NCBI RefSeq assembly: GCF_018304965.1
Contig: NZ_JAGQED010000003.1
Span: forward strand, 1-64,000
From: Collimonas antrihumi
GTDB lineage: Bacteria; Pseudomonadota; Gammaproteobacteria; Burkholderiales; Burkholderiaceae_D
Direction: 5' to 3'
DNA: 64,000 nt
Below, one piece after another: positions 18,186 to 32,679 of the stretch. Within the stretch, counting starts at the first letter, position 1; every line of letters starts with the position of its first letter. The translations under genes were made by a program, and so were the position numbers. The notes beneath the pieces were generated by a model. The model was not told the origin of the DNA, searched no databases, and was given only the letters and a program-made list of their open reading frames with translations.

Positions 18186-18971
18186 ATGACAGCAACATTA
18201 CCAGCAGGTTTGCAAAGTTTCTCATTGTCCGGCAGGCTCGCGCTGATCACCGGTTCCAGCGGTGGCATCGGCTTCGCGCTAGCTCGTGGCCTGGCTGCTG
18301 CCGGCGCCTCCATCGTGCTCAATGGCCGCGATGCGGACAAGCTGGCACGCGTGGCGGCGCAGTTGCGCAGCGAGGGCTACACGATTCATGAAGCCTGCTT
18401 CGATGTCACATCGTCGGCTTCGGTAGAGGCTGCGGTCGCAAAAATAGAAAGCGGAATCGGCGCCATCGATATCCTGTTCAATAATGCCGGCATCCAGCGC
18501 CGCGCACCGCTGGAAGAATTCAAGGAATCCGACTGGCACGAACTTATCCAGACCAATCTCAACAGCGTGTTCTTCGTCGCCAAGGCTGTCGCGCAACACA
18601 TGATTCCACGCGGCCGCGGCAAGATCGTGAATATCTGTTCGGTGCAAAGCGAGCTGGGACGCCCGAACATCGCCCCTTATACCGCCACCAAAGGCGCCGT
18701 GAAAATGTTTACCAAAGGGATGGCGATCGACTGGGGCAAATACGGCTTGCAGGTCAACGGCCTTGGGCCGGGCTATTTCAAGACTGAAATGAATGCGGCG
18801 CTGATCGCCGACCAGAAATTTACCGAATGGCTGGTCGGACGCACGCCGTCGCGCTGCTGGGGCGATGTGGAAGACCTGGTCGGGGCAGCGGTGTTCTTGT
18901 CCAGCGATGCATCGAAGTTCGTCAACGGTCATATCCTGTACGTCGATGGCGGCGTCACGGCTACTTTATAA
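18186..18971 (+). CDS. idnO: Gluconate 5-dehydrogenase (SDR)
   Basis: Reversibly interconverts 5-ketogluconate and D-gluconate, linking idonate use to gluconate. Classical SDR of 261 residues: TGSSGGIGFALARG cofactor loop near residues 19-32, NNAG motif (LFNNAGIQ), catalytic serine in NICSVQSELGRPN, and YTATKGAVK with the Tyr-x3-Lys pair. A strong AAGGAGACAAA precedes the ATG. The idonate dehydrogenase gene follows after 13 bases. Confidence 0.87.
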   Translation: MTATLPAGLQSFSLSGRLALITGSSGGIGFALARGLAAAGASIVLNGRDADKLARVAAQLRSEGYTIHEACFDVTSSASVEAAVAKIESGIGAIDILFNNAGIQRRAPLEEFKESDWHELIQTNLNSVFFVAKAVAQHMIPRGRGKIVNICSVQSELGRPNIAPYTATKGAVKMFTKGMAIDWGKYGLQVNGLGPGYFKTEMNAALIADQKFTEWLVGRTPSRCWGDVEDLVGAAVFLSSDASKFVNGHILYVDGGVTATL

Positions 18972-18984
18972 GGAGAGCAATATC

Positions 18985-20022
18985 ATGCAACAAGGAATTG
19001 TGATTCATGCACCGCGCGACTTACGCGTACAGGAATTGGAAACCGGTGAACTGCAGCCGGATCAGTTGAAAGTCAAGATCAAGGCTGGCGGGATTTGCGG
19101 CTCCGATCTGCACTATTATCACCACGGCGGTTTTGGCACGGTGCGCATCAAGGAACCGATGGTGCTGGGCCATGAGGTATCTGGCGTGATTGCCGAGACG
19201 GGTTCGGCGGTCAATGACCTTGCGCCGGGCACGCGCATTTCGGTCAGCCCCAGCCTGCCTTGCGGCCGGTGCAAGTACTGCCAGGAAGGCAAGCAGAACC
19301 ATTGCCTCGACATGCGCTTTTACGGTAGCGCGATGCGTACGCCGCACGTGCAGGGCGCCTTCCGCCAGGAGATTGTGATCGAGCGCTCACAGGCGCATGT
19401 CGTCACAGATAACGTCAGCGACGGTGAAGCCGCGATGGCCGAGCCGCTATCGGTAGCTCTGCACGCGGTACGCCGCGCCGGCGCACTGCTCGGCAAACGC
19501 GTGTTGATCACCGGTTGCGGCCCGATTGGCGCTTTGACGGTGATTGCCGCACGCCGCGCCGGTGCTTTGCAGATTGTCGTGACCGATGTCGCCAGGATGC
19601 CTCTGGAAGCAGCACTCAAGGTCGGCGCCGATCAAGCCATCGATGTCGGGCAACAACCGGATGCGCTGGCCGCCTTCACCAAGGACAAGGGCAGTTTCGA
19701 CGTGTTGTTCGAAGTCAGCGGCAACCAGCAGGCTTTGCGCGGCGCGCTTGACGCCTTGCGACCAGGCGCGATCATCGTGCAGGTCGGCCTCGGCGGCGAT
19801 ATCAATTTTCCTGCCAATCTGCTGGTCGGCAAGGAGCTGGAGTGGCGTGGTGCTTTCCGCTTCCATGAAGAATTCGCACTAGCGGTTGAATTAATGAATA
19901 AAGGCCTGGTCGATGTGAAGCCGCTGATCTCTGCCACCTATCCATTCGAGCAATCGGTGGAAGCTTTCGAGATTGCCGGCGACCGCTCGAAGATGATGAA
20001 GGTTCAGCTAAGCTTCAATTGA
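18985..20022 (+). CDS. idnD: L-idonate 5-dehydrogenase (zinc MDR)
   Basis: Oxidises L-idonate to 5-ketogluconate, the substrate of the preceding gene's product. It is a zinc-dependent medium-chain dehydrogenase of 345 residues. Visible are GGICGSDLHYYHHGGFG with the catalytic-zinc cysteine, GHEVSGVIAETG, the structural-zinc lobe CGRCKYCQEGKQNHC, and the nucleotide loop ITGCGPIGALTVIAARRAG. The ATG at 18985 follows AAGGAG. The frame runs further upstream, but that part overlaps idnO. A terminator follows at 20082. Confidence 0.9.
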   Translation: MQQGIVIHAPRDLRVQELETGELQPDQLKVKIKAGGICGSDLHYYHHGGFGTVRIKEPMVLGHEVSGVIAETGSAVNDLAPGTRISVSPSLPCGRCKYCQEGKQNHCLDMRFYGSAMRTPHVQGAFRQEIVIERSQAHVVTDNVSDGEAAMAEPLSVALHAVRRAGALLGKRVLITGCGPIGALTVIAARRAGALQIVVTDVARMPLEAALKVGADQAIDVGQQPDALAAFTKDKGSFDVLFEVSGNQQALRGALDALRPGAIIVQVGLGGDINFPANLLVGKELEWRGAFRFHEEFALAVELMNKGLVDVKPLISATYPFEQSVEAFEIAGDRSKMMKVQLSFN

Positions 20023-20081
20023 CGACTTCGCCTGGTTGTCCCGTTCAGGATTCTCATAGCCACGTCACTGGCGCTGCTATT

Positions 20082-20114
20082 AAAAAGCCTGTCTCGAAAG
20101 AAACAGGTTTTTTC
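20082..20114 (+). terminator. Bidirectional terminator between idnD and the EthD-like gene
   Basis: CCTGTCTC and GAAACAGG (20089-20107, one mismatch) form a stem with a GAAA loop, followed by T6 and preceded by A5. It separates two convergent operons. Confidence 0.85.
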
Positions 20115-20178
20115 TTGCCCCCGGTCAACTGCGGCAAACCGTGGTGACACGCACATTTACTTGTGTGTGATCCTGTCG

Positions 20179-20895
20179 TCAGGCTGCCGGCGATTTTACG
20201 ATGTATTGACTGCTTGGTATCACGTCGATTTTGTCGAAATCGATGAAACGTCCACAACTCTCCATCATCGCACCTACATTGCGCTGGAATTTGTCTTCGT
20301 TGCCGACTGCATTAAAGAATGCATACGGATCCGTCATGGCTGCGGCCGGAAAACATTCCTCGACAATAGCATCATAGGCCGGTGCAGCATGAGTGAGTGA
20401 ACGTATCACCACGTTTTGCACATACAAGAAGGTGTCTTGGGTATCGATCGCTACCTGCGTATGGTGGTTGTGCCACATGTCCAGCCAGGCATCGGGCGCA
20501 AGCCGTGGCGGCCGTTTCAGGAACGCCAGTTGCGCAAAGCCGGCCGTACGCTCGCCGGCGATCGATGGGTAACGCGTGTTGCGAATCGGCTGGGATTCGG
20601 TGACGAGATAACCAGCCATCCTTGCCACTGCATCCGCGATCACTACATCGAACGGCTGACGCAATTTTTCAATTGCGCTGTCTACCCACAGTGACAGGAA
20701 GCCATCGATTGGAGGACGGGTGTTCACTTGACGCAATTTGGCGGCAGATTCGACGGCCTGGTCTGCTACATTCACTTGCAAGCCGCGTGCGCCGATAGCG
20801 ATGAGTTTGTCGGCTACGTCGGTGCGCAGCATGTGGCTAAATTCTTCCTGGCTGGTCTGGGCATCGCGCCATAACAGATAGACGACTTTTTCCAT
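20179..20895 (-). CDS. EthD-domain-like protein
   Basis: A 238-residue protein opening MEKVVYLLWRDAQTSQEEFSH, the ferredoxin-like fold opening of EthD/dabb-type proteins. A second similar half begins near residue 115 (GFAQLAFLKRPPRLAPDAWLDMWHNHH). EthD-like proteins occur in oxidative catabolic clusters for ethers, terpenes and sterols, often without a defined reaction. It is the last gene of a leftward operon with an SDR, a sulfotransferase and a DUF1214 protein. The role is inferred only from that context. Confidence 0.7.
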   Translation of the reverse strand: MEKVVYLLWRDAQTSQEEFSHMLRTDVADKLIAIGARGLQVNVADQAVESAAKLRQVNTRPPIDGFLSLWVDSAIEKLRQPFDVVIADAVARMAGYLVTESQPIRNTRYPSIAGERTAGFAQLAFLKRPPRLAPDAWLDMWHNHHTQVAIDTQDTFLYVQNVVIRSLTHAAPAYDAIVEECFPAAAMTDPYAFFNAVGNEDKFQRNVGAMMESCGRFIDFDKIDVIPSSQYIVKSPAA

Positions 20896-20936
20896 TTCTT
20901 GAATTCCTTTATCGACAGTTAATTAATTGTGTCAAA

Positions 20937-20956
20937 GACCGCCTTCGGCGGCGGTC
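20937..20956 (-). other. GC-rich hairpin between the SDR and EthD-like genes
   Basis: GACCGCC (20937-20943) pairs with GGCGGTC (20950-20956). No U tract follows on the transcribed strand, so it is more likely an mRNA-stability or processing hairpin than a terminator. Confidence 0.5.
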
Positions 20957-21002
20957 CTGAATTCCCGGTCGGGCTTTACAGCTTTAATCCCAGGGAAGCA
21001 GA

Positions 21003-21797
21003 TCAGGTCGCCATGAAATCGCCGCCATTAGCATCGAGCGCCGCGCCGCTGATTGCGTTGGCGTAGTCGGATACCAGAAACAATGCCGCCTTGGCGCAGT
21101 CATCGTCGGTCGGCAAGCGTCCGAGTGCGATATTGGCGGCAATCGGCGCGACCAGCTGGGCTTCCGGCAGGTTAAGCTCTGCCGCCGTTTGTTTCATGTA
21201 GCCCTGGACCGGCGCACCCCACATCCAGCCCATATAGACGCTATTGGCGCGGATGCCGTGCGGCCCGAGTTCCCTGGCCAGATACTTGACGGCTACCGAC
21301 AACGCACCCTTGGATGCCGCATAGCCGCCTTCGCCGGGAAAAGGCTTGCGCGTAGCCTGGGTATTGATCATGACGATGGCGCCGCTGCCTTGTTTTTTCA
21401 TGTGCGGCACGACTTCCTGCGTCAATGTCATGGTGCCAAACACATTGGTATCGAATACGGCGCGCCAGGCATCCAGGTCGGCGCTTTCGATCGCCTCGGG
21501 GAAGTTGCCATGGACAAAAGCGCTATTCACCAGGGCGTCGATCCGGCCAAAGCGCTGGACCGTCTGCGCTGCCAGTTCCTTGCATTGGTCGCGCACGGTG
21601 ATATCTGTCACCATCTTCAACACCTCGCAATCGACGTTCAGTGCGCGGATACGCTGCTCGGCCTCGTCCAGTTTGGCTGCAGTCCGTGCTGCAAGTACGA
21701 CTGCTCGCGCGCCTTCGCGCGCCGCCTCGATGGCCAGCTTGACGCCCAGGCCGGGACCGATGCCGGAAATAATGACCACTTTGTCTCGTAATAACAT
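21003..21797 (-). CDS. Short-chain dehydrogenase/reductase
   Basis: NAD(P)-dependent oxidoreductase of 264 residues: IISGIGPGLGVKLAIEAAREGA (cofactor loop, GxGPGLG variant near residues 10-17), LVNSAFVHGN in place of the usual NNAG, IVMINTQATRKP, and GYAASKGALS with the catalytic Tyr-x3-Lys. It is 53 bases downstream of the sulfotransferase gene on the same strand. Probably oxidises or reduces an alcohol/ketone of the same substrate; identity unknown. Confidence 0.88.
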   Translation of the reverse strand: MLLRDKVVIISGIGPGLGVKLAIEAAREGARAVVLAARTAAKLDEAEQRIRALNVDCEVLKMVTDITVRDQCKELAAQTVQRFGRIDALVNSAFVHGNFPEAIESADLDAWRAVFDTNVFGTMTLTQEVVPHMKKQGSGAIVMINTQATRKPFPGEGGYAASKGALSVAVKYLARELGPHGIRANSVYMGWMWGAPVQGYMKQTAAELNLPEAQLVAPIAANIALGRLPTDDDCAKAALFLVSDYANAISGAALDANGGDFMAT

Positions 21798-21813
21798 TTT
21801 TTATGTCTCCAGT

Positions 21814-21849
21814 GATGTGATGTTGTCTGTAATGTTGTCTGTGATGTAA
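21814..21849 (-). repeat. 12-bp degenerate tandem repeat between sulfotransferase and SDR genes
   Basis: About three copies of a TGATGTTGTCTG-like unit (second copy TAATGTTGTCTG, third partial) fill most of the gap between the two genes. The copy borders are approximate. Confidence 0.7.
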
Positions 21850-21850
21850 T

Positions 21851-23071
21851 TCAGCGCGCCACAAGTGCAGCAGCAGGTGCAGCCGCTGCGGACAGAATGT
21901 GACGCTCGCGGTACGCTGCGAAATCCTGTTTGAGTTGTTCTTCCCCCAGGCCGAACTGCGCCAGCGTATAGTCGTGCGCTGCGCGCTGGTCGCGGCGATT
22001 CTGCGTCAGCCATGTCTGAATGGCGGCACGGACTTCATCAGGAAATGCAATGCCGGCAAAACGGTATACCGATTCGATCACGCTCAACGGTTTCGAGACG
22101 GTGTCTTCGAAGCGTATGTCGAGAAAATTTTCAGCCGGCAGCGTGGCGCGCACTGCCATCGTATGATGGACAGCATGCTGCATTTGCGAACTCCACTGAT
22201 GGCCTACCACTTTGGCGTCAGGCTGATCTGCGTACATTTTCCATAAAGTATGCGCAAAGCTGGCTAGCGATGGGATGGTTTGCGCAGGATCGCGATGCGT
22301 CAGCACCACTTTCGCTTGTGGGAAAACCTTGAGTAACAGCTCCAGCGTATGTAAATGCTGCGGCGTCTTGAGTATCCAGCGCTGCGCAGCAGGGGCGCCG
22401 CGCTGCAGTTTTTGCCATTGCAGGAACTGCAGCGTCTTTTTCAGGTATTGATAAACCGGCGTCCGATCCTGCTGTGCGAGCCACGCGGTATAGCTCGGCA
22501 CGTTCGCGTAGGAATCCATCGCCGACATGAACGCGTGTTCCATCAGCATGAATTCTTCGTCCGCCTGCATCGCGTCTAACGGATGAATCGCCAGAATCTG
22601 CGGAATGTATTCGATCATCGCCGCCACTTCGCCGCAGGCCAATGCAATACGCTGCTCCGGATTTTCCACTGGCTGGCCGGGTAGCGGCGCGGGGTAACGG
22701 GTTTCCCACCATGCCGCAGAATAAAACCGCTGGTCGACCGCCAGCGCCCGTTGCAGCAAGGTGGTGCCGGTGCGCGGCAAACCGACGATAACGACCGGAT
22801 CGCCGATGGGTTGTTGCTGAATCTCCGGATAACGTTTGCAGTAATCTTCGATGACCAGGCGATTGACGAGTTGCGCGAGCAACCTCTCGTGTAACAAGGT
22901 TCGGCCTTGCAGCGAAAGACCGGCTTCTTCATTCAAGGCTTTGCACATTACTTGCAGCGCTGTGCGGTAGTTGCCGTCGCCGAAATCGGTCAATCCGCGC
23001 GCACGCTCGGTGGCAAGGGTCAGCAAATGCTCGGCGTCAAGCAGGGGGGCTGCTACGGTATCGGTGCTCAT
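21851..23071 (-). CDS. PAPS-dependent sulfotransferase (Sulfotransfer_3-like)
   Basis: Transfers a sulfuryl group from PAPS to an acceptor. The 5'-phosphosulfate loop is clear (VVIVGLPRTGTTLLQRAL, about residues 93-110). The second PAPS-contact segment reads KVVLTHRDPAQTIPSLASF, with the conserved Arg and Ser. Length (406 residues) fits the bacterial sulfotransferase family. The start at 23071 lies 4 bases inside the upstream DUF1214 gene and has GGAGG in front. The acceptor is unknown; the neighbouring EthD, SDR, DUF1214 and SRPBCC genes suggest a hydrophobic alcohol. PAPS-synthesis genes lie in the divergent transcript. Confidence 0.87.
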   Translation of the reverse strand: MSTDTVAAPLLDAEHLLTLATERARGLTDFGDGNYRTALQVMCKALNEEAGLSLQGRTLLHERLLAQLVNRLVIEDYCKRYPEIQQQPIGDPVVIVGLPRTGTTLLQRALAVDQRFYSAAWWETRYPAPLPGQPVENPEQRIALACGEVAAMIEYIPQILAIHPLDAMQADEEFMLMEHAFMSAMDSYANVPSYTAWLAQQDRTPVYQYLKKTLQFLQWQKLQRGAPAAQRWILKTPQHLHTLELLLKVFPQAKVVLTHRDPAQTIPSLASFAHTLWKMYADQPDAKVVGHQWSSQMQHAVHHTMAVRATLPAENFLDIRFEDTVSKPLSVIESVYRFAGIAFPDEVRAAIQTWLTQNRRDQRAAHDYTLAQFGLGEEQLKQDFAAYRERHILSAAAAPAAALVAR

Positions 23072-24219
23072 GCTGCCTCCAACAGAGATGCGAGTTTGAC
23101 GACGCGGGTCGTCGGATGGACGGGTTGCGCCGCGCCGACCCAGCGCAAGCACATGGTACCGTTGCGGTGGCCGGCGGTTTCCAGCCAGTTGGGCCGTCCC
23201 GGATCACGCTGGGAAAGAATCAGCGTGATGCCGCCGTCGTTGTTGTAATGCGCCGAGTGTTTATTGATGCAAATGTTGTGGTGGCGATAATCGAGGGATT
23301 CCATCCAATAATTATTGATTTGCAGATTCCAGAAATCACAGGCCGGCACAGAGGCGGCATCGATAACGAGCGCTTCGTCATCGGCCAGTTCCCAGTACGA
23401 GTGGTAGTAGAAAATATTGGGGTCGCCGCCTACCGCCTGGCATATTGCCTGGTTCGCCGGAGGCAACTGGTTGGGGTGCGCCCGATAGCCCTGAGCCCAG
23501 TCTGCGAACAGTTTTGATGTGTTCTCGACAAAGCGCGCAGCGTTTTGCAGGCCCGCATGCAATTGCACCGGGTCGAGCGGTTGCGGCTTCGCATCCGATC
23601 CGATCCGTTCAATTTTCAGCTGCGCCGGCTTTTCCGTGCGGCGGTCGAGGAAGGTCTGGCGCACTACCAGCGCGTTGCTCGCGGCTTCCAGCGGCAGCCA
23701 GTTGCCGCTGTGCGGCTGCTGGCTGAGGATCAGTTCGAAGCTGCCATCTGCTTCGAACTGCAGGCGCTGGGCGTCGATGAAGCCGGTTTGTTCCATTTTT
23801 CCATCGGTCTCGTAGCCGCCTTTCTGGCTGCCGAAACTGAGGTAGGAAACGCTGCCTCGATGCCCCCGTACGCGGTATTCGTTGCGGCCGTTCAGGCGCG
23901 CATATTGATACATATTGTCCGGATTGTCGGCGCCGATCTTGGCAGTTTCATGCGACGGGACCAGGAAGCCGGGGAAATCGGCATCGGCAAATTCGACATG
24001 CATTTCCAAGCCGATGCGTAACAATCGGGTCAGGTAGCGGAAGCCTTCGGCATGGGTAAATGCATCGTGCGGCGCCTCGGCTCTCAGGATTTGTTGTCCG
24101 CTGTGTTTGAGCGAATCGCAGAAGCTTGCCCACGTTTCTCCGGAGAGAAGTTGCGATGCGATGTCGCTGTCGCCGTCACCGTCACTGTCTCTGTTATTGC
24201 GGTTGTCATTTTTCGCCAT
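23068..24219 (-). CDS. DUF1214 domain protein
   Basis: A 383-residue protein with the DUF1214 C-terminal domain, recognised by VIDAASVPACDFWNLQINNYWMES, NNDGGITLILSQRDPGRPNWLET and GTMCLRWVGA. No signal peptide is seen; the N-terminus is Asn/Asp-rich. Family members recur in catabolic clusters for steroids and other hydrophobic compounds, without a defined reaction. The start at 24219 has AGGAG in front. It is the first gene of the leftward operon and overlaps the sulfotransferase by 4 bases. Confidence 0.75.
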   Translation of the reverse strand: MAKNDNRNNRDSDGDGDSDIASQLLSGETWASFCDSLKHSGQQILRAEAPHDAFTHAEGFRYLTRLLRIGLEMHVEFADADFPGFLVPSHETAKIGADNPDNMYQYARLNGRNEYRVRGHRGSVSYLSFGSQKGGYETDGKMEQTGFIDAQRLQFEADGSFELILSQQPHSGNWLPLEAASNALVVRQTFLDRRTEKPAQLKIERIGSDAKPQPLDPVQLHAGLQNAARFVENTSKLFADWAQGYRAHPNQLPPANQAICQAVGGDPNIFYYHSYWELADDEALVIDAASVPACDFWNLQINNYWMESLDYRHHNICINKHSAHYNNDGGITLILSQRDPGRPNWLETAGHRNGTMCLRWVGAAQPVHPTTRVVKLASLLEAA

Positions 24220-24347
24220 GCCGATTCTCCTGTCATCCGTGCATTCACGGTTTGTTTTAGATACTTTTTCCAGGTGTTGATGAGAGTGGACATTCGTGCG
24301 GATGTCTCCTGGACACAGCACCATAGCAATCGCGGGCAGGCTTCTCT

Positions 24348-24363
24348 TCGTCCGGTCGGACTA
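24348..24363 (+). promoter_or_regulatory. Palindromic operator, copy 1
   Basis: TCGTCCGGTCGGACTA, with perfect GTCCG/CGGAC arms around GT. It lies 129 bases upstream of the DUF1214 start. Near-identical copies are at 24420-24435 and 26294-26309. Confidence 0.8.
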
Positions 24364-24419
24364 ACAATTTGATTGCCGGGCTTTTTGCAAAAGCTATATT
24401 GCGGCGCGTCAAGAATAGC

Positions 24420-24435
24420 TAGTCCGACCAGACGA
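24420..24435 (-). promoter_or_regulatory. Palindromic operator, copy 2 (inverted relative to copy 1)
   Basis: TAGTCCGACCAGACGA; its reverse complement differs from copy 1 at one position. It lies 78 bases upstream of the SRPBCC start, so the divergent promoter region is bracketed by two copies. Confidence 0.8.
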
Positions 24436-24512
24436 GGTTTGTGAATCTATGGACTGTCAATATGAGTGGATACGCTTTCAATCCAGTATCGACACATTCC
24501 CAGGAGACTTGC

Positions 24513-25013
24513 ATGTCCGATTCAAAATACCTCGTTACGTCAATTAAAGTACAGATCAATGCGCCTGCATCGCTGGTATGGGATGTGCTGGTGGACCTGG
24601 ATAGTTACCCGCAGTGGAATCCTTACACGGTGCGGGTGGAATCGACTCTGAAAATGGGGGAGCCGGTGAATCTGTTTTTACCGAATCCAGGTCAGCCGGG
24701 GGAATTGGTTCATGTGATTGAACACCTGGCGACTTTCGACCGCCCGCGGCAGCTGTCATGGGAGATGTCGCCTTCCGAGCATTCACCGGATGCGGCCCGG
24801 CGCGACCAGTATATCGAGGCGACCGGCGCCGCGACGTGCACTTATTTCACGACCGATCTGTTCCTGGGACCGACCGCGCCTACCGTGATGGAGCAGCATG
24901 GGGAATGGGTGCGGCAAGGCTTCGACGCGGTAGCGCGTAGTCTGAAGGTGCGGGCGGAGTCGCTGTATCAGGACACTACGGCTATACAAGAGCAACACCA
25001 TGCGCGATACTAA
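24513..25013 (+). CDS. SRPBCC (START/Bet v1-like) family protein
   Basis: A 166-residue polyketide-cyclase/START-type protein with the family opening VTSIKVQINAPASLVWDVLVDLDSYPQWNPYTVRVES. The fold holds a hydrophobic ligand in a cavity. AGGAG precedes the ATG at 24513; the upstream open frame lacks support. It overlaps the flavin oxidoreductase by 14 bases, so the two are coupled. Its ligand is probably the same hydrophobic substrate handled by the cluster. Confidence 0.82.
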   Translation: MSDSKYLVTSIKVQINAPASLVWDVLVDLDSYPQWNPYTVRVESTLKMGEPVNLFLPNPGQPGELVHVIEHLATFDRPRQLSWEMSPSEHSPDAARRDQYIEATGAATCTYFTTDLFLGPTAPTVMEQHGEWVRQGFDAVARSLKVRAESLYQDTTAIQEQHHARY

Positions 25014-26244
25014 CCCGACACCGGTGTCACCATTCTCGACAGTCAGCCTTGGACCGATCACGCTACGCAATCGTTTTATCAAGGCCGGCGCCAATGAAGG
25101 CATGACGCCCACTGGCTTGCCTACCCGCGCGCTCGTCAAGCATCATCGTGACCTCGCTGCCGGCGGCATCGGCATGACTACCGTTGCCTACGCCGCCGTG
25201 GCGCGCGACGGCCTGACTTTCCCGCATCAGATGCACATGCACGAGGACGTGGTACCGCATCTGCGGGTACTCACCGATGCGGTGCATCGCGAAGGCACCG
25301 CTGCTTGCCTGCAGATCACTCACGCGGGTTCGTTCACGATGATGCGCCACGGCGGACGCCGCAGCGCGCCCACTGCATCGGCAGGCTTGAATGCGTTTGG
25401 CATGCTGTACGGGGTGTTTTTCCAGCGCGCCATGAACCAAGCCGATATGGCCGGCGTCGCTGCTCAGTTCGCCGACGCCGCGCGCCTTGCGCGCGAGTGC
25501 GGCTTCGATGCAGTCGAAATTCATATGGGTCACGGCTATCTGCTCAACCAATTCTTGTCACCGCTGAGCAACCGCCGGCGCGATGGTTTCGGCGGTTCGA
25601 CCGAACAACGTACGCGCTTTCCCGTAGAGGTATTGCGCCAGGTAAAAGACGCCGTCGGCGCGCATCTGGCAGTTACCTGCAAGCTGAGCGTGAGCGACGG
25701 CGTGGCAGGCGGCAATCGTGCACAGGACTCGGCGGTGACCGCGCGCATTCTCGAAGCCGAGGGCGCCGATCTGCTCACGCTGAGTGGTGGCCGCAACGTC
25801 GAGAGCCCGTGGGCGCTGTTCGGCAGCCCATTGCCGACCGCACAAATGAAAGTTGCCGCGCCACATGCGCTGGCACGCTTCGGCGTGACAATGCTGGAAA
25901 AACGCACACCGCGCGACCTGACATTTCGCGAACTGTATTTCCTTGAGGATTCGCGCGTGATCCGGCAGGCGGTGCGAATGCCGCTCGCATTTGTCGGCGG
26001 CGTCAAATCGCTGGCCGGTGTCGAACAGCTAATGGCCGAAGGTTTCGACTGCGTAGCCCTGGCGCGGGCACTGATCCACGATCCGGCGCTGCCCGAACAT
26101 TTCCGCACCGGCGCTGTGAAGCAATCCGCCTGCAACAGCTGCAACGCGTGCGTTGCGAAGATCTACGATCCCGCTGGCGTGAGTTGCATTCTCCGCACAC
26201 CGAACGATCCCGCGCTCACACGCATGCTTGCCGCGGATGGGTAG
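25000..26244 (+). CDS. NADH:flavin oxidoreductase (Old Yellow Enzyme family) with a four-cysteine tail
   Basis: FMN-dependent ene-reductase TIM barrel of 414 residues: ITLRNRFIKAGANEGM, ITHAGSFTMM, FDAVEIHMGHGYLLNQFLSP, DGFGGSTEQRTRFPVEV, FVGGVKS and DCVALARALIHDP. Near the C-terminus C378, C381, C384 and C396 (CxxCxxC-x11-C) resemble the Fe-S ligands of 2,4-dienoyl-CoA reductase. The second dehydrogenase domain that normally follows is absent. It probably reduces a C=C bond, receiving electrons from an unknown partner. Co-transcribed with the SRPBCC gene. Confidence 0.85.
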   Translation: MRDTNPTPVSPFSTVSLGPITLRNRFIKAGANEGMTPTGLPTRALVKHHRDLAAGGIGMTTVAYAAVARDGLTFPHQMHMHEDVVPHLRVLTDAVHREGTAACLQITHAGSFTMMRHGGRRSAPTASAGLNAFGMLYGVFFQRAMNQADMAGVAAQFADAARLARECGFDAVEIHMGHGYLLNQFLSPLSNRRRDGFGGSTEQRTRFPVEVLRQVKDAVGAHLAVTCKLSVSDGVAGGNRAQDSAVTARILEAEGADLLTLSGGRNVESPWALFGSPLPTAQMKVAAPHALARFGVTMLEKRTPRDLTFRELYFLEDSRVIRQAVRMPLAFVGGVKSLAGVEQLMAEGFDCVALARALIHDPALPEHFRTGAVKQSACNSCNACVAKIYDPAGVSCILRTPNDPALTRMLAADG

Positions 26245-26293
26245 TCCGCCTGGCGTGGCATCGTTGCGGTTGCACGCCAATCCGCCAATTTTT

Positions 26294-26309
26294 TAGTCTG
26301 GTCAGACGA
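26294..26309 (+). promoter_or_regulatory. Palindromic operator, copy 3, upstream of cysD
   Basis: TAGTCTGGTCAGACGA has perfect GTCTG/CAGAC arms around GT. It matches copies 1 and 2 in the divergent promoter 2 kb away. It lies 86 bases before cysD in a 150-base gap that otherwise shows only the cysD ribosome binding site. Confidence 0.82.
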
Positions 26310-26394
26310 AGATTCAATATGGCGCCATCAGTATTCTTTGCTTAACGCACGAGACTTCAATCATCAAGTCCGGCGAACTCAAAGGAGACTATCG

Positions 26395-27291
26395 ATGTTG
26401 ACCCACTTGCAGCGCCTTGAGGCGGAGAGCATTCACATCATGCGAGAGGTGGTGGCGGAATGTGAGAACCCGGTGATGCTTTATTCCATCGGCAAAGACA
26501 GTGCCGTGATGTTGCATCTTGCGATGAAGGCGTTCTACCCGGCTAAGCCACCGTTTAAGTTATTGCATGTCGACACGACGTGGAAATTCAAGGAAATGAT
26601 TGCGTTCCGCGACAAGATGGCGCAGCAGTTGGGGATTGAATTGATTGTCCACGTCAACCCTGAAGGGGTTGAAAAGAATATCAATCCGTTCACCCATGGC
26701 TCTGCCGTTCATACCGACATCTGGAAAACCGAAGGCTTGAAGCAGGCGCTCGACAAATACGGTTTTGATGCGGCATTCGGCGGCGCGCGGCGCGATGAAG
26801 AAAAGTCGCGCGCCAAGGAACGCATCTTCTCGATTCGTTCCGCCCAACACCGTTGGGATCCAAAATTACAACGTCCCGAACTCTGGCGCATGTATAACGC
26901 GCGCAAGAATAAAGGTGAAAGTATTCGGGTATTTCCGATTTCAAACTGGACCGAGCTCGACATCTGGCAGTACATCTATCTGAACAATGTGCCCATCGTG
27001 CCGCTGTATCTGGCGAAGGAGCGGCCGGTGGTGGAGCGCGACGGCACGCTCATCATGGTCGACGACGAGCGTATGCCGCTCAAGCAGGGTGAGGTTCCTG
27101 AAATGCGGAAGGTGCGCTTTCGCACGCTCGGTTGTTATCCGTTGACTGGCGCGATCGAAAGTGAAGCCGACAGCCTGACAGCGATTATTCAGGAAATGCT
27201 GCTGGCCCGCACATCCGAACGGCAAGGCCGCCTGATTGACCACGATTCCAGCGGTTCGATGGAGAAAAAGAAGCAAGAGGGGTATTTCTGA
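26395..27291 (+). CDS. cysD: Sulfate adenylyltransferase subunit CysD
   Basis: ATP sulfurylase small subunit; with CysN makes adenosine 5'-phosphosulfate from sulfate and ATP. PP-loop motif [18 protein letters not shown] near residue 30, then [31 protein letters not shown] and [16 protein letters not shown]. The ATG at 26395 has AAAGGAG in front; residues upstream in the open frame are not family-like. Length is 298 residues, normal. Its stop overlaps the next start (TGATG). Confidence 0.95.
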
Positions 27292-29195
27292 TGGCACACG
27301 TATCCGACATGATTGCCGAGGACATCGGGCAATATCTGACATCGCACGAGAACAAGAGCCTGCTGCGCTTTATCACCTGCGGCAGCGTTGACGACGGCAA
27401 GAGCACGCTGATCGGGCGCCTGCTGTATGAATCGAAGATGCTGTTCGAAGATCAGTTGAGCCAGCTGGAAATAGATTCGAAGAAGGTCGGCACCCAAGGC
27501 GGCGACCTTGATTTCGCTTTGCTCGTGGATGGACTTGCGGCCGAACGCGAACAAGGCATCACCATTGATGTGGCGTATCGCTTCTTCTCCACCGACAAGC
27601 GCAAGTTCATCGTGGCCGACACACCGGGGCATGAGCAATATACGCGCAACATGTTTACCGGCGCTTCCACCGCAGACGTCGCCATTATCCTGATCGATGG
27701 CCGTAAAGGCGTGTTGACCCAGACCCGGCGCCATAGCTATCTGGCGTCCCTGATCGGGATTCGTCATATCGTGGTGGCGATCAACAAACTGGACATGGTG
27801 GATTACTCACAGGAGATCTTTGAGCGGATCGATGCGGAATACCGTGCGTTTGCCGCCGAGATCGGCCTGAAGAATATAGTGACGATTCCGATGTCGGCGC
27901 TCAAGGGCGACAACATCACGGAATTAAGCGCCAATACGCCGTGGTACACCGGCCCGACGCTGATGGCGCATCTGGAGGATGTACAAGTCGAGGATTCGGC
28001 CGATGAATCGGGGCCGTTTCGCATGCCGGTGCAGTGGGTCAATCGTCCGAACCTGGATTTTCGCGGCTATTCCGGTATCGTGGTGGGCGGCAGCGTCAAG
28101 CCTGGCGATCGCTTGCGTGTATTGCCATCCGGCCGAGAGAGCAACGTCGCACGGATCGTCACAGGCGATGGCGATCTGGCGTGTGCGGTGTCGGGGCAAT
28201 CGGTCACGATTACGCTGCAAGACGAGATTGATATCAGCCGCGGCGACATTCTGGTGACCACTGAAGCGCCGGCCGGGGTGGCGGACCAGTTCGAGGCAAC
28301 CATCGTCTGGATGAGCGATGAACCGATGATGCCAGGGCGTCCCTATTTGTTGAAGATCGGCACCAAGACGGTGACGGTCACCGGCGCCGCGCCAAAATAC
28401 AAGGTCAACGTCAATACGCTCGAGCATCTCGCCGCGAAGAAACTGGACTTGAATGAAATCGGAGTCTGCAATCTGAATTTCGACCAGCCGATCGCGTTTG
28501 ATCCGTATAAGGAAAATCGCGATACCGGCGGCTTCATCATGATCGACCGCCTGACCAACAATACGGTTGGCGCCGGACTCTTGCATTTTGCTTTGCGCCG
28601 TTCGCAGAATATCCATTGGCAGGCAATCGACGTCAACAAGCAAGCGCACGCAGCTCTCAAGCGACAAAAACCTTGCGTGATCTGGTTCACGGGATTGTCG
28701 GGCGCCGGCAAGTCGACGATTGCCAACCTGGTTGAGAAAAAACTGCACGCGCTGGAGAAGCATACCTATCTGCTCGATGGCGACAACGTGCGGCACGGGC
28801 TGAACAAGGATCTTGGATTCTCGGAAGCGGACCGGGTCGAGAACATCCGGCGCGTCGGAGAAGTGGCAAGACTGATGGTGGATGCCGGCCAGATCGTGCT
28901 GGTGTCATTCATCTCGCCATTCCGCTCTGAACGCAGAATGTCGCGTGAGTTGGTGGCAGCGGATGAATTCTTCGAGGTATTCATCGATACCCCGATCAGC
29001 GTGGCCGAGCAGAGAGATCCGAAGGGACTCTACAAGAAAGCGCGTCGCGGTGAGCTGAAGAACTTTACCGGTATCGATTCGCCTTACGAACCGCCTGAGA
29101 ATCCGGAGATCCGGGTCGATACCACGGTCCAGTCGCCGGAGCAGGCGGCCGAACTGATCGTTGCCCATCTGATTGCCGCCGGGGTGCTCGCATGA
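27291..29195 (+). CDS. cysNC: Bifunctional sulfate adenylyltransferase subunit 1/APS kinase (CysN-CysC fusion)
   Basis: Fusion of 634 residues. The N-terminal GTPase half (CysN) has [32 protein letters not shown] and NKLDMVDYS, and drives APS synthesis with CysD. From about residue 455 an APS kinase domain follows, with its P-loop GLSGAGKST at 468-476 and [22 protein letters not shown]. The pair CysD plus CysNC therefore makes PAPS. This NodQ-like layout is typical where PAPS is used for sulfation, and no PAPS reductase or sulfite reductase gene is in the window. The DHH phosphoesterase start overlaps its stop by 4 bases. Confidence 0.94.
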
Positions 29196-30163
29196 GCCAT
29201 TACTACGCATTCAACGGCGATGCAGACGGCTTGTGCGCGTTGCAGCAACTGCGGCTGGCCGAGCCGCACCTGCTGCAACAAGCGACACTGGTGACCGGGG
29301 TCAAACGCGACATCAAGCTGCTGCAGCGCATCGATGCAGAGGTGGGCGATGAGATCACCGTGCTCGATATCTCACATGATCAAAATCGGGCCGATGTATT
29401 GCGATTGATACAGGCGGGTGCATCGTTGCGCTATTTCGATCATCATCACGCCGGCGAACTGCCGCGGCATCCTTGCTTTGCGCCATACATCGAAGAGGCC
29501 GCTGAAGTCTGCACCAGTATCCTGGTCGACCGCTATCTTGACGGCCGTCATCGCTACTGGGCCATCGTCGCAGCGTTCGGCGACAGCTTGCCTGAAGTGG
29601 CAAACGCGATGGCGCGCGCGGCGGGGCTCGATCTGCATCAGGCCGCGACTCTTGAAAGACTCGGCATCTGTCTGAATTACAACGCTTATGGCGAGACAGT
29701 CGCCGATCTGCATTTCGACCCCGTCGATCTGGCCGAATCGATGCTGCCTTTTACCGATCCGCTGATGTTCGCCGCGCATTCGGAGGCCTACGCGCGGCTC
29801 GCCGCCGGTTACGAAGAAGACATGTGCCAGGCCCGCAGACTCGCGCCGCTGCGGCAAGTGCCGGGAGCGATGCTGATGCGCCTGCCAGACGAAGCGTGGG
29901 CGCGGCGTGCCATCGGCGTCTTCGCCAACGAGCTGATGCTGGCACAGCCGGACTGCGCACTCGGCATCTTGTCGCCGCAAAGCCGTGGCGGTTTTACCGT
30001 GAGCGTTCGGGTGCCAACGCATAGCCCGGTTGGCGCAGCTGATTTTTGCCGGGCCTTCGATACGGGCGGTGGCAGGAAGCTGGCAGGTGGCATCAATCAT
30101 CTGCCGGCAAATGAGCTTGAGCGCTTCGCCGGCCGGTTTGAAGCGTGCTTTGGCATGGCATAG
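29192..30163 (+). CDS. DHH-family phosphoesterase, candidate PAP phosphatase
   Basis: A 323-residue protein with DHH-superfamily metal motifs: FNGDADG (7-13), DISHD (59-63) and DHHHAG (83-88). A C-terminal DHHA1-like part contains the substrate loop [12 protein letters not shown] enzymes include NrnA, which degrades oligoribonucleotides and dephosphorylates 3'-phosphoadenosine 5'-phosphate. Translational coupling to cysNC (4-base overlap) makes removal of PAP, the sulfotransfer by-product, the most attractive role. This is inference; an oligoribonuclease or unrelated phosphoesterase remains possible. It appears to lack a long linker or extra domains. Confidence 0.8.
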
Positions 30164-30175
30164 GCAGGTATCGAG

Positions 30176-30961
30176 ATGAATCTGCTCAACCCGTTTGCAG
30201 GCTTTCTGGTCGGTTTGCTGGTCGGCTTTACCGGAGTCGGCGGTGGCGCGCTGATGACGCCTTTGCTGATCTTGCTGTTTGGCGTCGCGCCGCAAACGGC
30301 AATCGGAACCGACCTGCTGTTTGCCTCGATCACCAAGGGAGCAGGGGGCTGGGTGCATGGCGCCGCCGGCACGATCGACTGGCTGGTGTTGCGCCGGCTC
30401 GCATCGGGGAGTTTGCCCGCTGCGGGACTGACGTTGCTACTCATCAGGCACTCCCATCTGGACCAGAGCATGCACACCCTGATCCTGCAAGCGCTGGGCG
30501 CTACGCTCGCCCTGTGCAGTCTGGCGATGCTATTCAAATCCAGGCTCCATCAGCTGGGGCAACGGCTGCGCACTGTGGCGCCGGCACGCTTCAAGGGGGC
30601 GCAACCGATGCTGACGGTGGCCGCCGGGGCATTGCTGGGATTCCTTGTCACATTCACCTCGGTCGGAGCAGGTGCGCTTGGCGCAGTAATGCTGGCCTTT
30701 CTCTACCCTTATCGTCTGACGCCGGTCAAGATCGTCGGCACCGACATCGCGCATGCGATACCGCTTACGCTGGTTGCCGGCCTTGGTCATCTCACGCTCG
30801 GCAATGTCGATTTCGCACTCTTGAATTCACTGCTGCTCGGTTCGCTTCCCGGTGTCATTGCCGGTGCGTTATTGAGCAACAGAATCGCCGATCGTTATAT
30901 GCGCAATGCGCTCGCGGTGATTTTACTGGCGGTCGGTGGGCGGCTTCTGGTGGCGGGCTGA
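30176..30961 (+). CDS. TauE/SafE family membrane permease
   Basis: A 261-residue inner-membrane protein with about eight helices and the family's repeated motif: GFTGVGGGALMTPLLILLFG in the first half, and FTSVGAGALGAVMLAFLYP with KIVGTDIAHAIPLTLVAGLGH in the second. TauE/SafE proteins move sulfur-containing anions (sulfite, sulfoacetate, possibly sulfate). Thirteen bases after the DHH gene, it probably supplies sulfate or exports a sulfur anion for this pathway. Direction is not determined. A long overlapping frame in this region is a shadow. Confidence 0.87.
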   Translation: MNLLNPFAGFLVGLLVGFTGVGGGALMTPLLILLFGVAPQTAIGTDLLFASITKGAGGWVHGAAGTIDWLVLRRLASGSLPAAGLTLLLIRHSHLDQSMHTLILQALGATLALCSLAMLFKSRLHQLGQRLRTVAPARFKGAQPMLTVAAGALLGFLVTFTSVGAGALGAVMLAFLYPYRLTPVKIVGTDIAHAIPLTLVAGLGHLTLGNVDFALLNSLLLGSLPGVIAGALLSNRIADRYMRNALAVILLAVGGRLLVAG

Positions 30962-31025
30962 AGGTAGGTCGGAACGGCCGCTGTGCGATTCTCCGGTCAA
31001 AGCAGTTTTGTCTAAATGATATTTG

Positions 31026-31066
31026 TCGTCCGTTATTTATCGCTGCCATCTACGCTAAACGGACGA
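31026..31066 (+). promoter_or_regulatory. Inverted repeat upstream of the LuxR-type gene
   Basis: TCGTCCGTT (31026-31034) and AACGGACGA (31058-31066) are perfect inverted copies 23 bases apart. Each contains TCGTCCG, the half-site of the operator found at 24348, 24420 and 26294. It could be a binding site of the same regulator, or a transcript hairpin. Confidence 0.5.
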
Positions 31067-31156
31067 TTCGCGATCAGGTAGAACAACTATTATTGTCCAA
31101 GACAAAAAAGCCGAAATAATTGATTTCCCCAGTCATGTTCCAAGGAGATAGTGAAC

Positions 31157-32344
31157 ATGTTGACGACTACCGCCGAGGTCCGCGCCAGCGGAACCCGCCT
31201 TTTTGAAATTGCCGCACTGCCGTCCGAGCAATTGAGCATGCTCCTTGGCCTGATCTATCAGGGGCCGATGGAGGCAACCCCGTGGTCCAGCTCGCTTGAA
31301 TTCATCCGGCAGCAACTGCAAGCCAGTTTTGCAACGCTGGTGCTGCGTACGCCAGCCAGCACTCGCCCGGGGCTGATCGTCAATGCCTCCGTGTTCGGTG
31401 CATTGCTGCCGGGCGAGCCGTCATATAGCACCGATTATTATGCGCAATGCCCATTCATCGGCTTGCCGAACGATCAGGTATTCACGGCGGATGAAATTTT
31501 CGGGGTGGACGGATGGTGTGCCCACAAGTTCTACCGGCAGTATCTGCAGCCGCTGGATTTGCGCTACATCCTGGCGGCAAACATCCGTACCGCCGATGGC
31601 GTGGAGTGCGCGTTCTTCGTCTGCCGGGGACATGGCGCAAGCGACTATTCGGCAGCCGAGAAGGCTTTCATTGCGGTGTTGCTGCCGCATCTCAAAAGAG
31701 CGGTAGACCTGCATTCGAAGCTGGACGTGGTGGAGTCTGAACGGTCGCTCTATGCGGGCACGATGGACCGGATGCTGATCGGCACCGTGATTCTGGACGA
31801 GGGCGGCCATGTGCTGAAGAGTAACGGCGCGGCAGACGGCATGATTACGGAAAAGGACGGCGTCCTGGTCAACAAGGGCGTGCTCGAGGCGCATTGTCCG
31901 ATCGATAATCGCAAATTCCAAAAGGCAATCCGGCTCGCCCTGGCCAATCACCTTGGCGGGGCCAGCGCTTCGGTGGAAGTGATGACGTTGTCCCGGTCTT
32001 CCGGCAAGGCGCCGTTGAGCGTGCTGATTCGCGCGATCCCGCTGAACTATTGCGCGGACGAAGGAAAACGTCGGCCTGCAGTCGCCGTGTTCGTCCGGGA
32101 TCCGGTCAGTGCCTCGCATACCTCGCGCGAAACCGTGCGCAAGCTGTTCCGATTGACGCGCACCGAAACCGAACTGGCGATGCTCATGGCTGACGGCTTG
32201 ACGCTTGACGAGGCGGCAGAGGAGCTCGGCATCATGAAAAATACCGTGCGCGCCCACCTGCGCGGTATCTTCGCAAAAACCGGCGCGACGCGTCAGGCCA
32301 CGCTGATGAAGACTTTGCTCAGCAGTGTGGTTTCACTCGTGTAA
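31157..32344 (+). CDS. LuxR-type transcriptional regulator
   Basis: A 395-residue regulator whose C-terminus carries a LuxR/FixJ HTH (LFRLTRTETELAMLMADGLTLDEAAEELGI, then MKNTVRAHLRGIFAKTG, about residues 330-380). The N-terminal 300 residues have no sensor fold I can name, though residues about 190-310 look PAS-like. AAGGAG at 31142 is 9 bases before this ATG; a GTG at 31151 is too close. It is the only regulator in the sulfation region and the best candidate to bind the shared palindrome there. Ligand unknown. Confidence 0.82.
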   Translation: MLTTTAEVRASGTRLFEIAALPSEQLSMLLGLIYQGPMEATPWSSSLEFIRQQLQASFATLVLRTPASTRPGLIVNASVFGALLPGEPSYSTDYYAQCPFIGLPNDQVFTADEIFGVDGWCAHKFYRQYLQPLDLRYILAANIRTADGVECAFFVCRGHGASDYSAAEKAFIAVLLPHLKRAVDLHSKLDVVESERSLYAGTMDRMLIGTVILDEGGHVLKSNGAADGMITEKDGVLVNKGVLEAHCPIDNRKFQKAIRLALANHLGGASASVEVMTLSRSSGKAPLSVLIRAIPLNYCADEGKRRPAVAVFVRDPVSASHTSRETVRKLFRLTRTETELAMLMADGLTLDEAAEELGIMKNTVRAHLRGIFAKTGATRQATLMKTLLSSVVSLV

Positions 32345-32385
32345 GTTCTGACCTGTCAACCGGCTCGACGCAAGGCGCCAGGTGC

Positions 32386-32679
32386 GTGCCCGGTCCAGCG
32401 ACTGCAGGCGCGATTGCCTTTCTCGCGTATGTCTTCGATAAGTATGCAGCAAAGAACAAGCGGTGGAGAACCAAAGAGGGCACGTTGCACATGCTGGAGC
32501 TGGTTGGCGGCTGGCCAGGTGCTTTACTGGCTCAGAAAATTGTACGCCACAAATCCCGGAAGGAAGAGTTTCAAACAGTATTCTGGGCTACCGTCATTCT
32601 CAATTGCTGTGCATTCGGCTGGCTTATTGCAAAGACCGGTTCTGGTTTTCTGCAATCGCTCGTCGCCCTGTGGACGTAA
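32386..32679 (+). CDS. DUF1294 membrane protein
   Basis: A 97-residue protein matching the DUF1294 pattern: FLAYVFDKYAAKNKRWRTKEGTLHMLELVGGWPGALLAQ, written here as two halves around residues 12-50, then RHKSRKEEF, FWATVILNCCAFGW and a final helix. Two or three membrane segments. The start is a GTG without a strong binding site. Many relatives carry an N-terminal cold-shock domain or an extra first helix that is lacking here. Function unknown. Confidence 0.72.
   Translation: MPGPATAGAIAFLAYVFDKYAAKNKRWRTKEGTLHMLELVGGWPGALLAQKIVRHKSRKEEFQTVFWATVILNCCAFGWLIAKTGSGFLQSLVALWT

Follow-up and report, generated by a model that had tools for sequence, protein, structure and literature searches.

Gene content and limits of the island

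The window analyzed here, meaning the whole stretch of 64,000 nucleotides, is the first 64 kb of a contig (C33) of Collimonas antrihumi, whose 4.72-Mb genome is 99.95% complete. It contains an inserted island that carries genes for the synthesis of 3'-phosphoadenosine 5'-phosphosulfate (PAPS), namely cysD and a cysN-cysC fusion (cysNC), together with genes for a PAPS-dependent sulfotransferase, a DHH phosphoesterase, and a LuxR-type regulator. From the middle of the island, the genes for a DUF1214 protein, the sulfotransferase, a short-chain dehydrogenase/reductase (SDR), and an EthD-domain protein run leftward, and those for an SRPBCC protein, an OYE-family ene-reductase, CysD, CysNC, the DHH protein, a TauE/SafE-family permease (TauE), and the LuxR protein run rightward (Table 1). 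A preliminary description had proposed a complete sulfation module at positions 20179-32344, and the open reading frames (ORFs) and genes that it named are all present where it placed them. The tight spacing it reported was also found, with an overlap of 1 base between cysD and cysNC and of 4 bases between cysNC and the DHH gene, except that the gap between the DHH and TauE genes is 12 bases, not 13. The sulfotransferase gene, if started at the ATG at 23071, would overlap the DUF1214 stop codon by 4 bases. The insertion itself, the island LuxR gene, and the operator-like boxes discussed below lay outside that earlier account.

In a DNA search of 15 genomes of the genus, including the genome under study, the left flank up to 20017 was matched in the congeners G002 and G014 with ~90% identity, and the right flank from 32404 was matched in the same two genomes with ~86-87% identity. 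In both of them, the flanks are separated by 354 bp where the window has 12.4 kb. These 354 bp open a 207-codon ORF in G002, which starts directly after the left flank gene; the window retains just the end of this gene, inside a 97-codon ORF, indicating that the island arrived and deleted the gene start. None of the 14 other congeners has the DHH gene. The segment 20018-32403 is a discrete, mobile, acquired unit, and its near-coincidence with the span 20179-32344 means that the limits proposed earlier were not drawn arbitrarily. No tRNA gene was found in the window and no integrase among the island ORFs searched, and the repeats detected were, in our judgement, chance-like except for the box pair. 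A promoter scan gave no more than the shuffle level (5 versus 5.9 expected), and terminator-like sites exceeded the shuffles (22 versus 12.0, standard deviation 3.4). An SDR gene at 18186-18971 and an alcohol dehydrogenase gene at 18865-20022 were considered as parts of the module and rejected; they lie in the flank common to G002 and G014, with GntP and FGGY-kinase genes.

Table 1 Features of the island and its right border.
Feature	Position	Strand	Basis and remarks
Inserted island, whole	20018..32403	.	12,386 bp; in G002 and G014, 354 bp separate the flanks (up to 20017 and from 32404)
EthD-domain protein	20179..20895	-	PF07110; copy with 69% identity immediately ahead of HsaC in Cupriavidus (L230)
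Short-chain dehydrogenase/reductase SDR2, PRK07890 subfamily	21003..21797	-	54-79% relatives in sulfotransferase-bearing clusters
PAPS-dependent sulfotransferase	21851..23071	-	PF13469; ORF extends to 23152, likely start ATG 23071
DUF1214 protein	23068..24324	-	PF06742; true start may be internal; 6ans 70-71% identical
Inverted operator-like box pair, divergent promoter	24348..24435	24348-24363 +, 24420-24435 -	Pattern match, <=1 mismatch
SRPBCC protein (polyketide cyclase/dehydrase-like)	24441..25013	+	PF10604; 46-66% relatives in several clusters
OYE-family ene-reductase	25000..26244	+	PF00724; 78% relative in Cupriavidus box-marked stretch (L231)
Palindromic operator-like box before cysD	26294..26309	.	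Pattern match
CysD, ATP sulfurylase small subunit	26395..27291	+	NF009214, TIGR02039; ORF from 26338, likely start ATG 26395
CysNC, ATP sulfurylase large subunit and APS kinase fusion	27291..29195	+	NF004035
DHH phosphoesterase, proposed PAP phosphatase	29192..30163	+	Motifs, fold
TauE/SafE-family permease, probable sulfate importer	30176..30961	+	PF01925; 42% to TauE in housekeeping sulfate cluster
LuxR-type regulator	31151..32344	+	PF00196; 41-62% relatives in box-marked clusters, 33% in G014
3' remnant of island-cut gene	32404..32679	+	Flank, outside module; comparison with G002

Predicted PAPS supply and use, and probable PAP disposal

The island sulfotransferase matches PF13469 with 141.7 bits (cut-off 27), and its GLPRTGTT and KTPQH...THRDP segments, which we take to be the PAPS-binding segments, align with those of 2zq5 and 2z6v, two solved relatives whose structure entries give no function. 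It is the only PF13469 match of the genome and also the only PF00685 match. Likewise, the island CysNC is the only full match to adenosine 5'-phosphosulfate (APS) kinase in the genome (PF01583, 240.7 bits; two partial matches reach 21-22 bits), so the island brings both the sulfo donor and its user. A housekeeping cluster on another contig (C1) encodes a CysH-type protein, CysD, a 448-residue CysN without APS kinase, a TauE protein, and a 565-residue protein that reads by eye as a sulfite reductase. The housekeeping CysH has CCxxRKxxPL and CxxC...ECGLH segments, which presumably mark APS reductases, and housekeeping assimilation should therefore bypass PAPS. No other source or use of PAPS is evident in the genome.

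These observations bear on the possibility that the island genes serve sulfate assimilation for cysteine synthesis, their neighbors being incidental. Such a role would agree with cysD and cysN being assimilation genes in many bacteria and with the linked TauE permease, but a separate cysD-cysN-cysH set with an APS-type CysH lies on C1, APS kinase is not required for APS reduction, and island-less congeners have sequence matching the cysN part. Moreover, the combination of a PAPS or APS reductase with a sulfite reductase that would identify an assimilation operon was not found among the island ORFs searched, and neither cysH, cysI, cysJ, nor cysG is among them, as the preliminary description had remarked. 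That description had named the lack of a separate housekeeping cysDN set as grounds for assigning the genes to assimilation, and such a set exists. We consider this possibility most improbable and rejected it. The PAPS genes and the sulfotransferase gene are additional to the housekeeping genes, as in a dedicated sulfation cassette, and the case for sulfation is strong.

The sulfate permease had also been proposed as a member of the module. This part is less well supported, given that no TauE relative was found in loci L006-L109 (with flanking sequence of 1.5 kb for 24 loci and of at most 10 kb for 80; tblastn, E <= 1e-8), and TauE was rejected as a core member. Because a 42% identical TauE relative lies in the housekeeping sulfate cluster, sulfate import by the island protein is plausible, outside the core.

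The DHH protein gave no Pfam match even at E 10 and no convincing sequence match in the PDB. Its residues D10, D12, D59, D83-H84-H85, and D131 are invariant in all 31 aligned sequences, and its AlphaFold2 model (pLDDT 95.1) has as best Foldseek match, in a PDB copy of 350,542 chains, the DHH-type phosphatase of 3'-phosphoadenosine 5'-phosphate (PAP) from Methanothermococcus thermolithotrophicus (8a8k; E 5.5e-12, TM 0.69-0.70, 12% identity). The DHH fold and the conserved Asp/His metal ligands thus place the protein in the DHH superfamily. Based on motifs, fold, and context, we predict that it is probably a PAP phosphatase, in keeping with the earlier suggestion that it clears PAP.

Several genomic contexts were examined for this assignment. 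On a plasmid of P. sprentiae, genes for a DUF1214 protein, a sulfotransferase, a VOC protein, CysQ, CysD, and CysN lie in a row, with the CysQ gene between those for the sulfotransferase and CysD, and in a Curvibacter locus (L067) the DHH gene lies directly upstream of a diverged sulfotransferase gene on the same strand. Among 100 relatives, PF13469 was present in 17 of the 25 genomes with DHH versus 16 of the 75 others (by genus, 17/25 with DHH versus 9/59 without, p = 4e-6), and it was present in 34 of 39 genomes from the 80 DHH loci described below, a set that includes loci already adjoining such a gene. CysQ scored above its cut-off in 5 of the 100 relatives and in none of the 25 with DHH, a difference that is not significant (p = 0.33), CysQ being too rare. 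The protein could instead be a general nanoRNase or cyclic-dinucleotide phosphodiesterase captured by chance, as might be suggested by the RecJ-, NrnA-, and DhhP-type structures that rank next in the Foldseek list and by the 8 of 25 DHH-bearing relatives that have neither PF13469 nor PF00685. We judge this to be quite unlikely, however, because the PAP phosphatase is the best structural match, the comparable P. sprentiae cluster has CysQ, and the Curvibacter gene directly precedes one for a sulfotransferase.

The same eight genomes also count against a fixed tie between the DHH gene and sulfation, as do most Paraburkholderia loci, where DHH occurs without sulfation genes nearby, and six congeners (G002, G005, G006, G007, G009, and G013) that possess PF13469 and an APS kinase without DHH or CysQ above cut-off, from which it follows that sulfation need not bring a recognizable PAP phosphatase. 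Plasmid DHH matches showed no sulfation context in the two regions viewed. Twenty Nitrosomonas-type loci (L051-L056, L058-L061, L063-L065, L068, L070, L071, L073, L075, L076, and L078) have a tight cysD-cysNC-DHH arrangement with no sulfotransferase nearby, and the 12 genomes of this type that were examined each have 1-6 PF13469 matches elsewhere.

Two further arrangements were observed. In the six congeners just named, a stand-alone APS kinase gene lies beside a PF13469 sulfotransferase gene (G002:C34:220013-221327 and matching places in the other five). In two Polyangiaceae loci (L045 and L046), a PAPS_reduct-family gene (assigned by Pfam in L045) and a diverged sulfotransferase gene come after cysD-cysNC-DHH.

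Conserved core, operator-like box, and steroid-ring genes

In order to compare the island with its relatives, we used the best 80 of 95 loci found through DHH, so that the counts favor DHH neighborhoods. Gene presence was taken from tblastn; a simple gene finder missed or misread genes, and alignments covering <40% of the query were dropped in one of the tblastn comparisons. The genes for the sulfotransferase, DUF1214, SDR2, DHH, CysD, and CysNC proteins occur together in 17 of the 80 loci (in Cupriavidus, Ralstonia, Pseudomonas citronellolis, and Pseudomonas sp. 30_B), accompanied by the LuxR gene in 16 of them. Paraburkholderia sacchari has the same core with cysD-cysNC further on, a Cupriavidus locus (L034) ends at a contig end with the sulfotransferase unseen, and one genome found through the sulfotransferase (G338) has the full core. 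Clusters of like composition had been named as a check of the module, and sulfotransferase, cysD, cysNC, and DHH genes do co-occur in relatives. The EthD, SRPBCC, and OYE proteins are accessory, since their genes are rarely near the core.

In a search starting from the sulfotransferase across 399 genomes of the order, only one other close relative was retrieved (63%, in G338), the rest being at most 36% identical. Diverged sulfotransferases in Pseudomonas sp. Root71, P. sprentiae, and locus L039 each have a DUF1214 neighbor, and hence the pair is old; the solved DUF1214 relative 6ans is titled uncharacterized. Root71 has two sulfation clusters, one (L030) with close CysD, CysNC, and DHH relatives (89, 89, and 73%) and distant sulfotransferase and DUF1214 relatives (30 and 32%), the other (L228) with close sulfotransferase and DUF1214 relatives (62 and 72%), an arrangement suggestive of an exchange of the PAPS part among pathways. 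The P. sprentiae plasmid cluster resembles the island in that DUF1214 adjoins the sulfotransferase and cysD-cysN and a PAP phosphatase gene stand in the same run; it differs in having CysQ for DHH, in sulfotransferase and DUF1214 proteins that are only 28-31% identical, and in that the 19 kb seen has no annotated LuxR gene and no box match better than 12/16.

Some neighbors of the diverged sulfotransferases were also recorded. Upstream of the P. sprentiae run (L204), there is a gene annotated as ecdysteroid 22-kinase family. On a Sphingobium plasmid (L206, hit H11), the gene after that for a ~36% identical sulfotransferase is annotated as haloalkane dehalogenase, and an EthD relative (44%) is encoded close by; hit H22 shows, by its feature names, the same order of a ~36% sulfotransferase and a haloalkane dehalogenase gene.

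A 16-base box with the pattern TCGTCYGNNNGGACTA was matched 3 times in the window when up to 1 mismatch was allowed, each time in the island, compared with 0.07 expected from shuffles. The divergent promoter at 24325-24440 has an inverted pair, and a palindromic version precedes cysD. Eleven Cupriavidus loci and G338 likewise have the pair at their cysD/DUF1214 promoter, and two Ralstonia loci have one copy among the six best matches listed. Genome-wide, the matches are bunched. One stretch in the congener G014 accounts for 8 of its 11 matches and two stretches in Root71 for 16 of 21, and the corresponding counts are 10 of 28 for P. citronellolis, 13 of 25 for P. sacchari, and 10 of 21 for Cupriavidus pinatubonensis, palindromic sites being counted once per strand. 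The p-values calculated for this bunching are too small, as the ends of the stretches were chosen after the matches had been seen. The pattern read backwards, used as a control, had more genome-wide matches than the box in 7 of 7 genomes; it is therefore the bunching, not the number, that constitutes the evidence. The genome under study has a second LuxR gene (G000:C12:36534-37730, L219), encoding a 42% identical protein, beside two single-mismatch boxes.

The box stretches of Cupriavidus, P. citronellolis, P. sacchari, Root71, and G014 lie in steroid-degradation regions. HsaC relatives are encoded in or near the stretches of all five genomes (in Root71 at the edge of the larger stretch), and KstD relatives in the two tested, those of Cupriavidus (PDB 7p18, E 3e-200) and G014. 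In C. antrihumi, contig C28 has two single-mismatch boxes with genes for relatives of HsaA (396 bits), HsaC (308 bits; PDB 2zi8), and PDB 6co6 (E 6e-74), the last of which we take to be IpdA. The NCBIfam matches of HsaA, HsaC, and KstD fall under the curated cut-offs, and we accordingly refer to relatives, not to certified members. We surveyed HsaC (E <= 1e-50) in 38 of the 80 DHH-locus genomes and in 5 further genomes of the G series. A relative was present in 22 of 22 genomes with the module (21 of 21 without L034) versus 4 of 18 DHH genomes without an orthologous module (p = 1e-7); G002 and G003 had none at this threshold. The sulfotransferase gene lies ~25 kb from that of HsaC in C. pinatubonensis, 7 kb in P. 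citronellolis, and 31 kb in P. sacchari, where it is co-directional with ring-cleavage lower-pathway genes (hydrolase, FAA_hydrolase, acetaldehyde dehydrogenase, and aldolase). The island EthD and OYE proteins have 69% and 78% identical relatives in the Cupriavidus stretch, the EthD copy directly before HsaC. The shared operator-like box and the ring-degradation genes of the same genome are what a steroid-degradation regulon would contain, and the link to steroid degradation by co-occurrence and shared box is strong.

Proposed function

We propose that the island is probably an accessory module under LuxR control, serving to sulfonate a steroid or a steroid-derived intermediate. TauE would import sulfate, CysD and the CysN part would make APS, and the CysC part would convert it to PAPS. 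The sulfotransferase would then move the sulfo group onto a hydroxyl of the steroid or steroid-derived intermediate, and PAP, formed as a by-product, would be hydrolyzed by the DHH enzyme to AMP and phosphate. Preparation or processing of the steroid may fall to the SDR, OYE, SRPBCC, EthD, and DUF1214 proteins, and the LuxR protein may bind the boxes and activate the island genes together with the other genes of the steroid regulon. The preliminary description had envisaged the sulfation of a hydrophobic alcohol and mentioned sterols; sulfation is supported and sterols come close, whereas TauE is not a conserved member and the EthD and OYE genes lie away from the core in most loci.

A number of observations weigh against this proposal. 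Of the 80 loci, 2 have EthD and 7 have SRPBCC close to the core, none has a close OYE there, and the Cupriavidus relatives of all three lie tens of kb away. No HsaC match of the survey reached the NCBI cut-off of 450 bits, nor did the HsaA match reach its own. Among the 22 module genomes, L034 has a contig-cut module and the HsaC match of G502 is weak (206 bits), and two strong HsaC matches occur in genomes without the module (G484 and G487). In the genome under study, in G338, and in Root71, HsaC is encoded on another contig than the module. Finally, G014 has boxes and HsaC with no PF13469 gene and no DHH, implying that core steroid breakdown can proceed without the module.

It is unlikely, in our estimation, that the sulfotransferase has a non-steroid substrate such as a surface glycan, lipid, or peptide and shares no more than its regulation with the steroid genes. 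Polysaccharides and Nod factors are frequent targets of bacterial sulfotransferases, and the 12 Nitrosomonas-type cysD-cysNC-DHH genomes, with their 1-6 PF13469 matches each, had HsaC in 0 of the 3 examined. Nevertheless, no glycosyltransferase or capsule gene is present among the island ORFs searched, all 22 module genomes have an HsaC relative, and box-marked stretches encode close relatives of the EthD, OYE, and SRPBCC proteins. Dedicated PAPS genes accompany a sulfotransferase in the NodP-NodQ-NodH system of rhizobial Nod-factor sulfation and in the rax genes of Xanthomonas. Like the island, these systems have ATP sulfurylase/APS kinase genes beside the housekeeping ones; they make a signal molecule, whereas the island is distinguished by the steroid-catabolic regulon, the DHH gene, and the DUF1214 and SDR partners.

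If a steroid is sulfonated, the modification may be conjugation only, for solubility, cell retention, or inactivation of a hydrophobic or toxic steroid, and not a step of breakdown; we regard this as possible, at somewhat less than even chances. Passages of PMC10932419 and PMC7690957 give detoxification and solubility as usual roles of small-molecule sulfation, and no function is listed for 2zq5 and 2z6v, the relatives with solved structures. In contrast, the co-directional run of the P. sacchari sulfotransferase gene with lower-pathway genes is as expected of a pathway step, and the DUF1214 neighbors kept by the diverged sulfotransferases of Root71, P. sprentiae, and L039 suggest follow-on chemistry. 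More tentatively, and with appreciable doubt, we consider that sulfonation could be a chemical step of aerobic steroid catabolism in which the sulfate ester is a leaving group. The DUF1214 or SRPBCC protein would catalyze sulfate elimination, the OYE ene-reductase and the SDR would saturate and rearrange the product, and a hydroxyl otherwise blocking ring degradation would be removed at the expense of PAPS. The island ene-reductase and the dehydrase-like SRPBCC protein lean weakly to such chemistry over tagging. A functional, speculative analogy is provided by the 25-hydroxysteroid kinase of Sterolibacterium denitrificans, which according to an excerpt of PMC8449060 phosphorylates a steroid alcohol to allow dehydration; like the proposed step it is a costly derivatization of a steroid hydroxyl in catabolism, and it differs in being a phosphorylation, not a sulfonation.

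The module relatives lie among or near genes for relatives of HsaA, HsaC, IpdA, and KstD, with LuxR-type regulators, as in 9,10-seco steroid degradation clusters of the Comamonas testosteroni type; in contrast, although bacterial steroid degradation is known in detail, the word sulfotransferase is absent from the main texts of four steroid papers (PMC4810484, PMC8399759, PMC6678751, and PMC13101464). Parts of PMC4810484 place Burkholderia, Ralstonia, Cupriavidus, and Pseudomonas among the steroid degraders, report that its Burkholderia, Ralstonia, and Cupriavidus members are without most cholate side-chain genes, and list Cupriavidus necator ATCC 17699 as 'G, R' for testosterone and '-' for cholesterol and cholate. 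As far as these texts go, the side-chain and growth data and the missing sulfotransferase favor C19 steroids and a step not described there. No such module was found among the open-access PMC papers listed or consulted.

In summary, mobile PAPS metabolism in steroid degraders would point to an unrecognized class of intermediates, and sulfated steroids would be on offer as products of biocatalysis. If sulfate does act as a leaving group, DUF1214 proteins would gain a biochemical role, and if the assignment of the DHH protein is true, it would represent a family of bacterial PAP phosphatases not covered by Pfam. With the operator-like box, the entire regulon becomes open to testing in several genera.

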